Source: Flavobacteriales bacterium 34_180_T64 (GTDB lineage: Bacteria; Bacteroidota; Bacteroidia; Flavobacteriales; Flavobacteriaceae). From it: DNA of 64,000 nucleotides. Numbering within the stretch: the stretch's first letter is position 1; each line of letters begins with the position of its first letter. The position numbers and the translations under genes are program-made. Location of the stretch: contig MAAR01000004.1 in assembly GCA_002162765.1 (NCBI GenBank), forward strand, positions 496,001 through 560,000. Direction: 5' to 3'. Below, piece by piece: positions 52,211-54,132 of the stretch. The notes under the pieces are model-generated. The model ran no database searches. It was not told where the DNA came from and saw nothing but the letters and a program-made list of their open reading frames with translations.

Positions 52211-52651
52211 ATGGAAACTTTACAAGAATTCCTTCTAGAAAAAGGATATACAAAGGTCAAACTAAAACTCACCAAAACAAATCACTTTGAAATAAAAGCA
52301 ACACTAAATGGTGTACAAGGATTATTTATTTTGGATACGGGAGCATCTAGTTCATGCGTTGGTTTTGATGCCGTTGATACTTTTAAGCTTGATGCTAAGG
52401 AATCATTAATTAAGGCTGCAGGCGCTGGCGCAATTGACATGGATACTCAAGTGGCTAAAAAAAATGTTCTTAAAATTGGGAAATGGAAAAATGAAAAAGT
52501 AGCACTAATTCTTTTTAACTTAACACATGTAAACACCGCCTTAATAACACATAACGCCCAACCTGTAGATGGAATTATTGGAGCCGATATACTAAAAAAA
52601 TCAAAGGCCATTATTGATTATGAAAAACGCTATTTATATCTAAAAATGTAG
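52211..52651 (+). CDS. Retropepsin-like aspartic protease
   Basis: A 146-residue single-domain clan AA aspartic protease. The catalytic motif is FILDTGASSSCVG with Asp42-Thr-Gly, and the closing hydrophobic GIIGADILKKSKAIIDY (about 118-134) is the second family signature. Active forms are dimers, as in retroviral protease. There is no signal peptide. TATATTTG at 52189-52196 is a -7 element 14 bases before the ATG. It precedes the NarL-type regulator by 66 bases on the same strand. Substrate unknown. Confidence 0.85.
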   Translation: METLQEFLLEKGYTKVKLKLTKTNHFEIKATLNGVQGLFILDTGASSSCVGFDAVDTFKLDAKESLIKAAGAGAIDMDTQVAKKNVLKIGKWKNEKVALILFNLTHVNTALITHNAQPVDGIIGADILKKSKAIIDYEKRYLYLKM

Positions 52652-52717
52652 TATTTTTTTTACTCATTTAAGAAATTGTCATTATATTTATATACTAATC
52701 CCTAGTAATTAATTTTC

Positions 52718-53344
52718 ATGCAGAATTCTATTATTATCGCTGATGACCACCCGCTTATACTTAAAGGTCTAAATGATTTTCTATTGGAAAAAAATTACAA
52801 TGTCTTGGCAAGTGCGGTAAATGGAAAAGAAGCGCTTCAATTAATTGAAGACCTCCAACCTGATATCGCAATTTTAGATATTCAAATGCCATTTTTAACT
52901 GGTTTGGAGATTGCAAAAAAATGTCAAGATGAAAAATATGCCACTAAAATAGTGTTCATTACTTTCGAAAAAGACGAGACTTTATATTTCAAGGCCAAAG
53001 CTCTAAACACTTACGGGTATGTCCTAAAAGAGTTTGCCTTAACCGAAATTGAAAACTGTATCTCTTCTGTATTAAATAATACACCATATTTTAGTCCAGA
53101 ATTGATTGCACACTTAAATCATATTGAAACCCCTAAAGAGTTGGAATTATTAACGCCAACTGAAAGAGATGTTTTAAAGCTGATAGCTCAAAATCTAACC
53201 GCAAAGGAAATTGGCGAACACATGTTTATTTCTGGTAGGACTGTTGAAAAACACAAGAGTCATATAATAAAGAAATTGAATATTGAGCCCATTCAAAATA
53301 GCCTATTAATTTGGGTTAAGGAAAATCAAGAATTTTTACTCTAG
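52718..53344 (+). CDS. NarL/LuxR-type response regulator, orphan
   Basis: A 208-residue two-component regulator. The receiver domain (about 1-120) has the acidic pair DD at 9-10, phospho-acceptor Asp54 in AILDIQMPFLTG and Lys104 in YVLKEF. The C-terminal LuxR-type helix-turn-helix (about 144-208) reads LTPTERDVLKLIAQNLTAKEIG then SGRTVEKHKSHIIKKL. No kinase gene is adjacent. The stop codon is six bases before the first of three identical 16-bp palindromes with 7-2-7 spacing, the geometry bound by NarL-type dimers, so this protein is the obvious candidate to bind them. Confidence 0.93.
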   Translation: MQNSIIIADDHPLILKGLNDFLLEKNYNVLASAVNGKEALQLIEDLQPDIAILDIQMPFLTGLEIAKKCQDEKYATKIVFITFEKDETLYFKAKALNTYGYVLKEFALTEIENCISSVLNNTPYFSPELIAHLNHIETPKELELLTPTERDVLKLIAQNLTAKEIGEHMFISGRTVEKHKSHIIKKLNIEPIQNSLLIWVKENQEFLL

Positions 53345-53349
53345 AAAAG

Positions 53350-53396
53350 TACGTAACGTTACGTATTGTTTGATATTGAATTAATAACGACCTTTA
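53350..53396 (+). promoter_or_regulatory. Activator palindrome and promoter of sRNA unit 1
   Basis: The perfect palindrome TACGTAACGTTACGTA (53350-53365) is two inverted TACGTAA heptamers around CG. After 23 bases comes GACCTTTA (53389-53396), a degenerate form of the TAnnTTTG -7 box. The dyad centre is about 43 bases before the predicted start at 53401, the position of an activator overlapping the -35 region. Confidence 0.75.
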
Positions 53397-53400
53397 CTGT

Positions 53401-53470
53401 GCTATTAATCAATTCTCAATATAGGAGAAATCAAAGGCTCTAAATTGTCAGTGATTTAGAGCTTTTTTTT
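53401..53470 (+). ncRNA. Candidate small RNA, unit 1 (about 70 nt)
   Basis: Predicted to start at the G of TGCTATTAAT, which is conserved in all three units. It has an internal hairpin TTCTC (53413-53417) / GAGAA (53425-53429) with loop AATATAG, and a terminator GCTCTAAAT (53437-53445) / ATTTAGAGC (53454-53462) with loop TGTCAGTG and eight T. There is no ORF of meaningful size. The terminator stem differs in sequence from unit 2 but keeps pairing, which indicates selection on RNA structure. The 3' arm can alternatively pair with AAGCTCT at 53471-53477 before the downstream peptide ORF. Confidence 0.72.
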
Positions 53471-53496
53471 AAGCTCTTTTTGGGTTCAACTTTTTT

Positions 53497-53598
53497 ATGA
53501 AAAATAAAGTCAATTTATTTAACGCCATGTTAATTATTGGTTTAATTATAAGTTCGATGCTTATAATTACAATAAATATTCTTGTTAATTTTAGTTAG
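53497..53598 (+). CDS. 33-residue membrane peptide 1
   Basis: A short ORF beginning ATG AAA AAT AAA and ending TAG. The product has a positively charged N-terminus (MKNKVNLFN) and one hydrophobic span (MLIIGLIISSMLIITINILV) that would cross the membrane once. The same length and pattern recur in the ORF at 53960: MKNK start, LIIGLI core, NILV near the end. Independent retention of a 33-codon frame in two copies argues that it is translated. It lies 26 bases after the sRNA 1 terminator and has its own terminator. I do not recognise the family. Confidence 0.65.
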   Translation: MKNKVNLFNAMLIIGLIISSMLIITINILVNFS

Positions 53599-53602
53599 TT
53601 AT

Positions 53603-53640
53603 AAAAAGGTGCATTCATATTTTTTGAATACGCCTTTTTT
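53603..53640 (+). terminator. Terminator after membrane peptide 1
   Basis: AAAAAGGTGCATTCA pairs with TGAATACGCCTTTTT (one mismatch and one G-T wobble) around a seven-base loop, followed by T residues, five bases after the peptide stop codon. Confidence 0.75.
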
Positions 53641-53661
53641 AATTTATTAGAAATTAAAATA

Positions 53662-53708
53662 TACGTAACGTTACGTATTGTCTCGTATTATATAATTACC
53701 GATATTTA
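53662..53708 (+). promoter_or_regulatory. Activator palindrome and promoter of sRNA unit 2
   Basis: Identical palindrome TACGTAACGTTACGTA (53662-53677), 23 bases, then GATATTTA (53701-53708). Spacing to the box is the same as in units 1 and 3, although the 23 bases between are not conserved beyond the first four (TTGT). Confidence 0.75.
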
Positions 53709-53712
53709 CATT

Positions 53713-53780
53713 GCTATTAATTCTTAGGGAGAATTATGTATTATTGAAGCTCTGGGTTGTCATTGACCCAGAGCTTTTTT
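53713..53780 (+). ncRNA. Candidate small RNA, unit 2 (about 68 nt)
   Basis: Starts at the G of TGCTATTAAT. The internal hairpin AATTCT (53719-53724) / AGAATT (53730-53735) exposes a TAGGG loop. The terminator AGCTCTGGGT (53748-53757) / ACCCAGAGCT (53766-53775) has loop TGTCATTG, nearly identical to unit 1 (TGTCAGTG), while the inner stem has changed from TAAAT/ATTTA to GGGT/ACCC with pairing kept. A three-codon ATG frame exists but is not conserved in the other units. No peptide ORF follows this unit. Confidence 0.72.
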
Positions 53781-53820
53781 GATTCCATTATCAATTACAC
53801 TCAAATAGATTTCAGAAATA

Positions 53821-53867
53821 TACGTAACGTTACGTATTGTATGGTATTGATATAATTAGGAAATTTA
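53821..53867 (+). promoter_or_regulatory. Activator palindrome and promoter of sRNA unit 3
   Basis: Identical palindrome TACGTAACGTTACGTA (53821-53836), 23 bases, then GAAATTTA (53860-53867). All three units share the first-T-to-G and last-G-to-A change from the TAnnTTTG consensus, which fits a promoter that depends on an activator. Confidence 0.75.
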
Positions 53868-53871
53868 CGGT

Positions 53872-53934
53872 GCTATTAATTAGTTCTTAGGGAGAATTTT
53901 TGAAGGCTCTGGATCATATAGGTTCAGAGCTTTT
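53872..53934 (+). ncRNA. Candidate small RNA, unit 3 (about 63 nt)
   Basis: Starts at the G of TGCTATTAAT. The internal hairpin TTCT (53884-53887) / AGAA (53893-53896) has the same TAGGG loop as unit 2. The terminator GCTCTGGA (53906-53913) / TTCAGAGC (53923-53930) has one G-T wobble, a nine-base loop and only four T, so it is the weakest terminator of the three. Read-through into the peptide ORF 26 bases downstream is therefore plausible. Confidence 0.7.
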
Positions 53935-53959
53935 GATTTAAATCATTTTTAAACTATTC

Positions 53960-54061
53960 ATGAAAAACAAGTATAGTCCCATAAATAAATTATTAATTAT
54001 AGGCTTAATACTAAGCGCCATTATAATTATATCCGTAAATATTCTTGTTATTTTCTATTAG
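53960..54061 (+). CDS. 33-residue membrane peptide 2
   Basis: Paralogue of the peptide at 53497, again exactly 33 codons. It has a charged start MKNKYSPINK and one hydrophobic span LLIIGLILSAIIIISVNILV. Shared with peptide 1 are MKNK, the LIIGLI core, the small residue pair at positions 19-20, NILV at 27-30 and the aromatic near the end. Differences are mostly conservative (I/L/V, S/T/A), as expected for a selected membrane helix. It follows sRNA unit 3 and ends at a terminator shared with odhB. Confidence 0.65.
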   Translation: MKNKYSPINKLLIIGLILSAIIIISVNILVIFY

Positions 54062-54082
54062 ATATGTATTGTGTATCAAACA

Positions 54083-54112
54083 AAAAGCGCAATTTTAAGA
54101 AATTGCGCTTTT
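54083..54112. terminator. Terminator between peptide 2 and odhB
   Basis: Thirteen-base perfect stem (AAAAGCGCAATTT / AAATTGCGCTTTT) around a four-base loop. The A/T flanks make it usable in both directions for the convergent peptide gene (ending 54061) and odhB (ending 54133). Confidence 0.88.
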
Positions 54113-54132
54113 AATTATTAGGCTTTTAAAAA

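Follow-up and report, generated by a model that had tools for sequence, protein, structure and literature searches.

Downstream of a response regulator (RR) gene in a 64,000-nucleotide (nt) stretch of the genome of Flavobacteriales bacterium 34_180_T64 (contig MAAR01000004.1, positions 496,001 to 560,000; hereafter the window), we found three tandem units, each made of a palindrome, a promoter-like box and a short hairpin RNA with its own terminator. These palindrome-linked hairpin RNAs are a new family of small RNAs (sRNAs); the kind of circuit in which we place them, siblings repressing their own RR, is already known. We read the locus as an activator together with its RNA output, which feeds back on the RR leader, and put the probability of this reading at roughly 0.7. 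The evidence that carries it is computed: conservation and structure of the RNAs, a fixed promoter geometry, linkage to the RR, complementarity to the RR leader, and recurrence of the same RNA body under other palindromes.

Layout of the Window Locus

The RR gene (52718-53344; all window features described here lie on the plus strand) encodes 208 amino acids (aa) with a receiver domain (REC) and a LuxR/GerE helix-turn-helix domain (Pfam Response_reg, 1.8e-23; GerE, 1.9e-14). In Pfam the protein also matches sigma-70 region 4 below the cut-off, and no sigma-54 activator domain was found. The perfect palindrome TACGTAACGTTACGTA, a predicted activator site, follows at 53350-53365, 53662-53677 and 53821-53836, exactly where a first-pass annotation of the sequence had placed it. 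At up to three mismatches these are its only sites in the 64 kb, with 0.16 expected, and none of 100 shuffles reached three.

Each palindrome is succeeded after 23 nt by a GAnnTTTA box at the -7 position (GACCTTTA, 53389-53396; GATATTTA, 53701-53708; GAAATTTA, 53860-53867). This constant spacing had been read correctly; the step from the box to the 5' end TGCTATTAAT, previously counted as four bases, is in fact three. TGCTATTAAT is identical across the three units and leads into a short hairpin and a terminator hairpin, giving predicted RNAs of 64-71 nt: sRNA 1 (53400-53470, TTCTC/GAGAA hairpin), sRNA 2 (53712-53779, TTCTTAGGGAGAATT hairpin) and sRNA 3 (53871-53934, TAGTTCTTAGGGAGAATT hairpin). 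The hairpin and terminator proposed for every unit appear in all three folds, with energies of -18.5, -26.0 and -21.0 kcal/mol and z-scores against dinucleotide shuffles of -3.61, -5.22 and -3.77 for units 1, 2 and 3, and the stems differ between units in the compensating manner described. The TGTCAnTG terminator loop, by contrast, had been called conserved and is present in units 1 and 2 only, and the T-run of the unit 3 terminator consists of four T only.

The first-pass annotation had expected no described Rfam family here, and we found none: a scan of the whole window against Rfam 15 returned only a tRNA, the region 53300-54130 gave nothing above the gathering threshold with E values up to 5, and the loci of seven relatives yielded only tRNAs. 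The family is likewise undescribed in the open-access literature that we searched on small RNAs of Winogradskyella, Flavobacteriaceae/Flavobacteriia and Bacteroidetes.

Conservation and Covariation of the RNA Units

Conservation in related genomes, proposed earlier as a test, is borne out. We built a covariance model (R1) from 20 units, with 65 positions and 22 pairs; sRNAs 1, 2 and 3 score 57.6, 64.4 and 75.2 bits (the last being the highest), all three being among its training sequences. R1 matches were obtained in 87 of 299 Flavobacteriaceae genomes, including that of the window (3.16 Mb, 19 contigs, about 91% complete). This count is a lower bound and the family is wider than the R1 matches, because a genome with units goes unlisted: G129 (contig C8, locus L272) has the protease-RR gene order and three palindrome units, two with GCTATTAAT, and no listed R1 match. 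Among 296 genomes drawn across the order (26 of the 296 listed), six had matches, all of them Flavobacteriaceae.

An alignment made with R1 (A4; 146 rows, 139 distinct) has 89.6% of cells paired and changes on both sides in all 22 pairs, counts that lean towards the model structure since the alignment was fitted to it. Its covariation score was 0.406, compared with 0.226 after shuffling and at most 0.132 in slid controls. Of 141 plus-strand units, 119 have the 5' sequence GCTATTAAT; complete open reading frames (ORFs) of at least 8 codons number three in the same set.

A search for the RR in 60 relatives gave a match in 58, mostly to other regulators, with about 16 ortholog-like (at least 47% identity). 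For larger counts we used the best 80 of 530 loci confirmed in a scan of named genomes (the named RR loci), from Winogradskyella, Gelidibacter, Psychroserpens, Formosa, Xanthomarina, Mangrovimonas, other genera and unnamed bins; these loci are related by kinship, and counts over them are not independent. Pattern matching recovered a palindrome-linked GCTATTAA-like unit in 75 of the 80; of 120 such units, 107 have a spacing of 35 or 36 nt. The five pattern-negative loci comprise two with R1 matches (L067, L080), one with palindromes and, by eye, a diverged unit (L092), and two in which none was seen (L110, L115).

RR orthologs have palindrome-sRNA units downstream as well, one to three in L006-L011 and L014-L020, and arrays elsewhere reach four (L158) and six (L157) units. 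Judged by this arrangement, the RR encoded immediately upstream is probably the activator of the sRNA promoters. In units of the Winogradskyella type (L067:4132-4300, L080:4131-4330, L092:4128-4320) we observed an extra 5' hairpin, about GTTATTAATTAAGGGTTAATAAC, which duplicates the seed-plus-AGGG module inside one RNA.

A Fixed Promoter Geometry

The main promoter of Bacteroidetes carries a -7 box resembling TAnnTTTG. We scored a box pattern (TAnnTT or nAnnTTTA/G) at each offset from the palindrome. At the 80 named RR loci, the box stands at offset 23 for 163 of 167 palindromes, while other offsets hold a mean of 2.7 and at most 27; the fixed promoter geometry suspected from three units thus extends across the loci beyond chance. 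The same holds away from sRNA loci, where 36 palindromes from the window's genome and its relatives, including three of a paralogous regulator, show the box at offset 23 in 25 cases (other offsets from 5 to 69: mean 1.6, largest 7, at offset 22). The 11 boxless palindromes are one in G028 and two in G193, both genomes with sRNAs, three in G008, where a unit was found by pattern at L020, and five in G081, G095, G118 and G123, which are absent from the listed R1 matches. A palindrome of the window's genome outside this count (L269, C6:34422) likewise lacks the box at 23. Measured to its centre, the palindrome is about 43 nt ahead of the RNA start, close to the position of a class II activator.

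Complementarity to the Response Regulator Leader

The RR gene has a probable -7 box of its own (TATATTTA, 52683-52690, read directly); in the 80 loci this octamer, TATCTTTA and TACCTTTA count among the most frequent 8-mers upstream of RR. Its leader, which reads AATCCCTAGTAATTAATTTTC-ATG, is complementary to sRNA units 2 and 3. Duplex energies place a predicted pairing site at 52697-52714 (AATCCCTAGTAATTAATT), with equivalents in relatives. On the RNA side, the pairing elements are the conserved 5' end GCUAUUAAU, whose leader counterpart is AUUAAUAGC, and the AGGG loop, together complementary to the RR translation start. The first-pass annotation had proposed that an exposed GGG/AGG loop targets or mimics purine-rich sites; the loop is there, but its more likely partner is pyrimidine-rich CCCU, first of all in the RR leader.

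Ranked among 64 window gene starts, the RR leader comes first for sRNA 3 (-17.7 kcal/mol) and second for sRNA 2 (-16.9 kcal/mol). We extended the survey to the 73 named loci with plus-strand R1 matches. RR is the best-pairing start of its own locus in 57 of these, and mean pairing is -16.1 kcal/mol for RR as compared to -9.4 kcal/mol for 391 other starts, 1.8% of which reach -16.1. Motif counts over the 65 nt before the RR start are clearer: TTAATAGC occurs in 43 of 80 RR leaders, always starting at -14 to -10, and at 3 of 419 other starts, and TCCCT in 31 of 80 as against 2 of 419. The leaders of the sRNA-less loci L110 and L115 have neither motif. At the six-unit locus L157, the RR leader pairs with the RNA consensus at -18.5 kcal/mol.

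These observations suggest the following mechanism. An RR dimer would bind each TACGTAnnnnTACGTA palindrome, with its centre some 43 nt ahead of the RNA start, and recruit RNA polymerase to the -7 box, so that three short, terminated non-coding RNAs would be made. Through the single-stranded 5' end and the exposed AGGG loop, units 2 and 3 would pair with the RR leader immediately before the start codon and block translation, giving negative feedback. By analogy with Qrr and luxO or OmrA/OmrB and ompR, we infer that the sRNAs repress translation of their own RR, pairing close to the start codon as reported for FopS-10 of Bacteroides (PMC11697453). The same pairing elements may act on further mRNAs, and sibling RNAs under other activators may open this RNA-level output to other signals.

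Several results weigh against this reading, besides the kinship of the loci and the structure-fitted alignment already mentioned. Seven of the 80 named loci, having no plus-strand R1 matches, fall outside the pairing survey, and within it RR is not the best-pairing start in 16 of 73 loci. Against leader shuffles the mean z is -1.76, with z below -2 in only 30 of 73, which indicates that leader composition explains part of the pairing signal. TTAATAGC or TCCCT is found in 54 of 80 leaders, which leaves 26 with neither. The sRNAs of other species pair with an RR leader just as well as those of its own species do (-16.05 and -16.06 kcal/mol; the native ones better in 39 of 73), since both sides are conserved. 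Pairing with the consensus is weak (-7.3 kcal/mol) for the RR leader of L158, a locus with four units. In the window itself, sRNA 1 pairs with the RR leader at -6.5 kcal/mol (rank 35 of 64), and the full redundancy once assumed for the three siblings is therefore unlikely.

Some of the same points favour a different view, in which the units are RR-activated, trans-acting siblings that serve other mRNAs only and the RR-leader match is not regulatory. The lack of species-specific co-change between sRNA and RR leader would fit this, as would the weak pairing at L158, the poor pairing of window unit 1, and the occurrence of the same body beside PAS-LuxR regulators whose leaders show no strong complementarity (-8.0 to -11.8 kcal/mol at six loci). 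Opposed to it is the near-fixed TTAATAGC beside the RR start codon, rare at other starts and absent from the sRNA-less L110 and L115. We consider this view unlikely, though it deserves attention, and retain feedback on the RR leader as the preferred reading.

The Same RNA Body Under Other Palindromes

Among 14 hand-picked R1 matches that we inspected, six copies (L147, L148, L149, the first of L150, L151, L155) carry the palindrome ATACTCAATTTGAGTAT or a close form. They sit immediately 3' of a 256-260-aa regulator, in one case PAS_3 plus GerE by Pfam; the others look alike in their sequence starts. The gene after the copy is convergent in five of the six, which argues that the PAS-linked RNAs stand alone and are not leaders. 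In the window's genome, two copies at L146 have repeats of the TTACGG...CCGTAA type and lie 3' of a 221-aa regulator and a tetratricopeptide repeat (TPR) histidine kinase whose HATPase_c match is below the cut-off. The neighbours of L154 are similar, but its repeat is less perfect; Pfam identified a receiver domain in the L154 regulator and no family in the 221-aa regulator of L146. The RR type is represented by L156 and L159; another repeat accompanies the second copy of L150, and in L152 and L153 no repeat was recognised.

From the centre of the palindrome to the G of GCTATTAAT we measured 43 in the PAS type, 43.5 in L158 (two copies), 45.5 in L157 (one copy) and 41.5 in the TTACGG type of the window's genome; for L154 the script chose a different repeat. 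At L146 (3300-3800 and 10200-10800, contig C3) we observed two copies of the kinase-regulator operon. After each there seem to be two tandem repeat-plus-RNA units, of which the second has an RNA with the same body as the window sRNAs.

The earlier proposal of siblings under one activator is accordingly only partly upheld: the sibling genes and their fixed geometry stand, but the same RNA body also lies beneath other palindromes beside other regulators. The leaders of these other regulators showed nothing convincing against the RNA consensus in nine places (the six PAS loci, L154 and two in L146), at -6.9 to -11.8 kcal/mol. Because the PAS-regulator leaders show no good pairing with the RNA, a shared set of other targets is likely.

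The recurrence of one body also bears on the idea of a decoy array, in which the palindromes serve to titrate the RR and transcription is a by-product. Several perfect palindromes at one locus would suit such a role; the conserved RNA structure and 5' sequence, and the presence of the same body beneath other palindromes, speak against it, and we regard a decoy as extremely improbable.

Kinase Slot, Protease and Small Membrane Proteins

Upstream of the window RR lies a retropepsin-like aspartyl protease gene (52211-52651; Pfam Asp_protease_2). A protease directly before RR, with no kinase signature, is found at 78 of the 80 named loci; the other two, both sRNA-less, have a kinase there. Those two, L110 and L115, share the gene order TatD, protease, TPR histidine kinase, RR, palindrome, small membrane protein. 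In L012 and L013 (G011, G026) a kinase also adjoins RR by position and no sRNA unit was found, so that all four kinase-adjacent RR loci examined are without the sRNA. The association of kinase absence with sRNA presence is a correlation across related genomes and not a count of events.

The L115 kinase has no match in the window's genome at E of 1e-40 or below, though a more distant kinase may serve; given this result, the window RR looks like an orphan with an empty kinase slot. We tentatively suggest, at somewhat less than even odds, that one module (5' GCUAUUAAU plus AGGG hairpin) is an Hfq-free output common to at least three activator systems in Flavobacteriaceae, and that the tandem copies of the window lineage arose with loss of the cognate kinase gene, leaving the RR as an orphan set by RNA feedback.

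Two ORFs for 33-aa single-pass membrane proteins lie 3' of sRNA 1 (53497-53598) and 3' of sRNA 3 (53960-54061), and their relatives are found downstream of RR elsewhere. Neither has a Pfam or NCBIfam match; the consensus ends in about ISINILVNFF. In kinase-adjacent relatives a palindrome or near-palindrome directly precedes an ORF of this type, and the 33-aa membrane protein is perhaps the ancestral output of the RR.

Given these neighbours, the units could also be cis-acting leaders or attenuators of the 33-aa genes. The small membrane ORF pattern does recur downstream in 41 of 93 RR loci (45 minus the four in sRNA-less L012, L013, L110 and L115, with a few genomes counted twice). At the sRNA-less loci, too, the palindrome or near-palindrome stands ahead of the ORF with no sRNA between. 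This explanation fits poorly with up to six complete units in one array (L157) and with the convergent gene that follows most PAS-linked copies. In the folds, moreover, we saw no complementarity between the conserved 5' module and the terminator stems, and no antiterminator is visible. We judge a cis-acting role to be quite improbable, and continue to treat the units as separate RNAs acting on the RR leader.

Candidate Targets and Regulon Members

In the window's genome, ATTAATAGCA has 73 matches as compared to 24 for the reversed control. We inspected 69 of them, the other four being the three window units and C13:558238. Of these 69 sites, 27 lie outside open frames of at least 90 codons, additional sRNA copies accounting for two. 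Two sites end within 3 nt of a long-frame ATG, one belonging to a secreted-like protein of 500/490 aa (L171) and one to the gene after nirK (L182); at L226 a site lies 31 nt upstream of the ATG. The combined TCCCT...TTAATA pattern was not enriched (56 matches, 53 in the control), and we do not claim a general target set.

At L259 (4190-4230, contig C6), between nirK-like and SUMF1-like genes named by eye, we observed AATTAATAGCAC directly before the start of the post-nirK gene. This gene, in a denitrification cluster, is another candidate for targeting by the sRNA 5' end. At L163, L180, L189 and L257, also in the window's genome, the leaders of several protein genes seemingly begin, as the sRNAs do, with TGCTATTAAT a few bases past a -7-like box.

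A fourth perfect palindrome in the window's genome (G000:C6:62110) is the sole further site genome-wide at up to two mismatches. It has TAATTTTG at offset 23 (L001/L005) and stands ahead of a gene for a secreted protein with a type IX sorting tail (L005:7165-8082), a probable further regulon member. In two other genomes (G190, G193) the same palindrome type and box precede genes matching PADLOC models (L261, L262, L265): PDC-S37, PDC-M49A at 9.4e-290, and an ATPase-Toprim-like gene. Three of ten post-palindrome genes had strong PADLOC matches and one a weak match, and a second ten gave one weak match; we claim no general link to defence. A paralogous kinase-regulator pair (L268, G028:C3) has palindromes with a GGTC or GGCT centre and the box at 23, two of which precede secreted-protein genes. 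The four central bases of the palindrome may distinguish paralogs.

Relation to Known Small RNA Systems

Hfq (PF17209) was found in none of 40 genomes, including the approximately 91% complete genome of the window, and in 5 of 14 controls. CsrA (PF02599) was above the cut-off in none of the same number of genomes, again with the window's own included, with one sub-threshold match (G051) and 3 of 14 controls positive. Any RNA chaperone would be a different protein, perhaps one with an RRM such as RbpB, described from Bacteroides (PMC11697453).

CsrB/RsmY-type RNAs are an output of two-component systems, and their purine-rich GGG/GGA hairpin loops resemble those of our units. Protein-titrating RNAs of this type, in which AGGG/AGGA loops sequester a regulator, would agree with the finding that 113 of 141 units have AGGG, AGGA or GAGAGA in their hairpin region and with the convergence of several activators on one RNA body. 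In contrast to that type, there is no CsrA above the cut-off, most units have one such loop, and the best conserved element is the unpaired 5' pairing sequence and not the loop. Protein titration is accordingly very unlikely in our estimation, and base pairing through the 5' end remains the preferred mode of action.

The window sRNAs are encoded beside their RR, unlike OmrA/OmrB, which are not known to neighbour ompR. The two Omr RNAs of the E. coli EnvZ-OmpR system are otherwise close in kind to what we predict here: tandem siblings with a common 5' end, activated by an RR and described as repressing the mRNA of their own regulator through the 5' region (PMC4211561). They differ from our units in depending on Hfq, which was not found here, in their regulator, the RR here being of the NarL/LuxR type with palindromic sites, and in that our units have no Rfam match.

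The Qrr RNAs of Vibrio are several siblings driven by one RR; qrr1 lies beside luxO, whose mRNA the Qrr are described as repressing (PMC8043402; PMC4211561). The suggestion of Qrr-like logic in unrelated sequence is supported by our computation, with no Rfam match to Qrr. LuxO uses sigma-54 and the Qrr use Hfq; here we find a REC-GerE RR and a -7 box.

Within Bacteroidota, the FopS/GibS RNAs of Bacteroides are likewise a multicopy family with a conserved 5' seed, and FopS-10 is described as repressing translation by pairing beside a start codon (PMC11697453). As presented in the accessible text of that source, FopS consists of a single-stranded 5' stretch and a terminator under canonical promoters, with no linked RR named there. 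Our units have an extra 5' hairpin and no Rfam match, the presence of a FopS model in that Rfam copy being unchecked. Rfp18 of Flavobacterium psychrophilum is, like the window family, a conserved flavobacterial sRNA; by its description, on which alone we compared it, it is predicted to pair via a third stem-loop (PMC9723704), whereas our units have two hairpins including the terminator.

Biological Meaning

The literature that we searched yielded few characterised sRNA circuits of Flavobacteriaceae, Rfp18 being one. For the family described here, present in at least 87 of 299 genomes, an activator is probable, the promoter code is defined and a pairing site can be predicted. Its kinase-adjacent, sRNA-less loci and its kinase-less loci with sRNA arrays offer a way to ask how RNA feedback arises in signalling, and the placement of one body under several activators raises the question of why different signals converge on one RNA.

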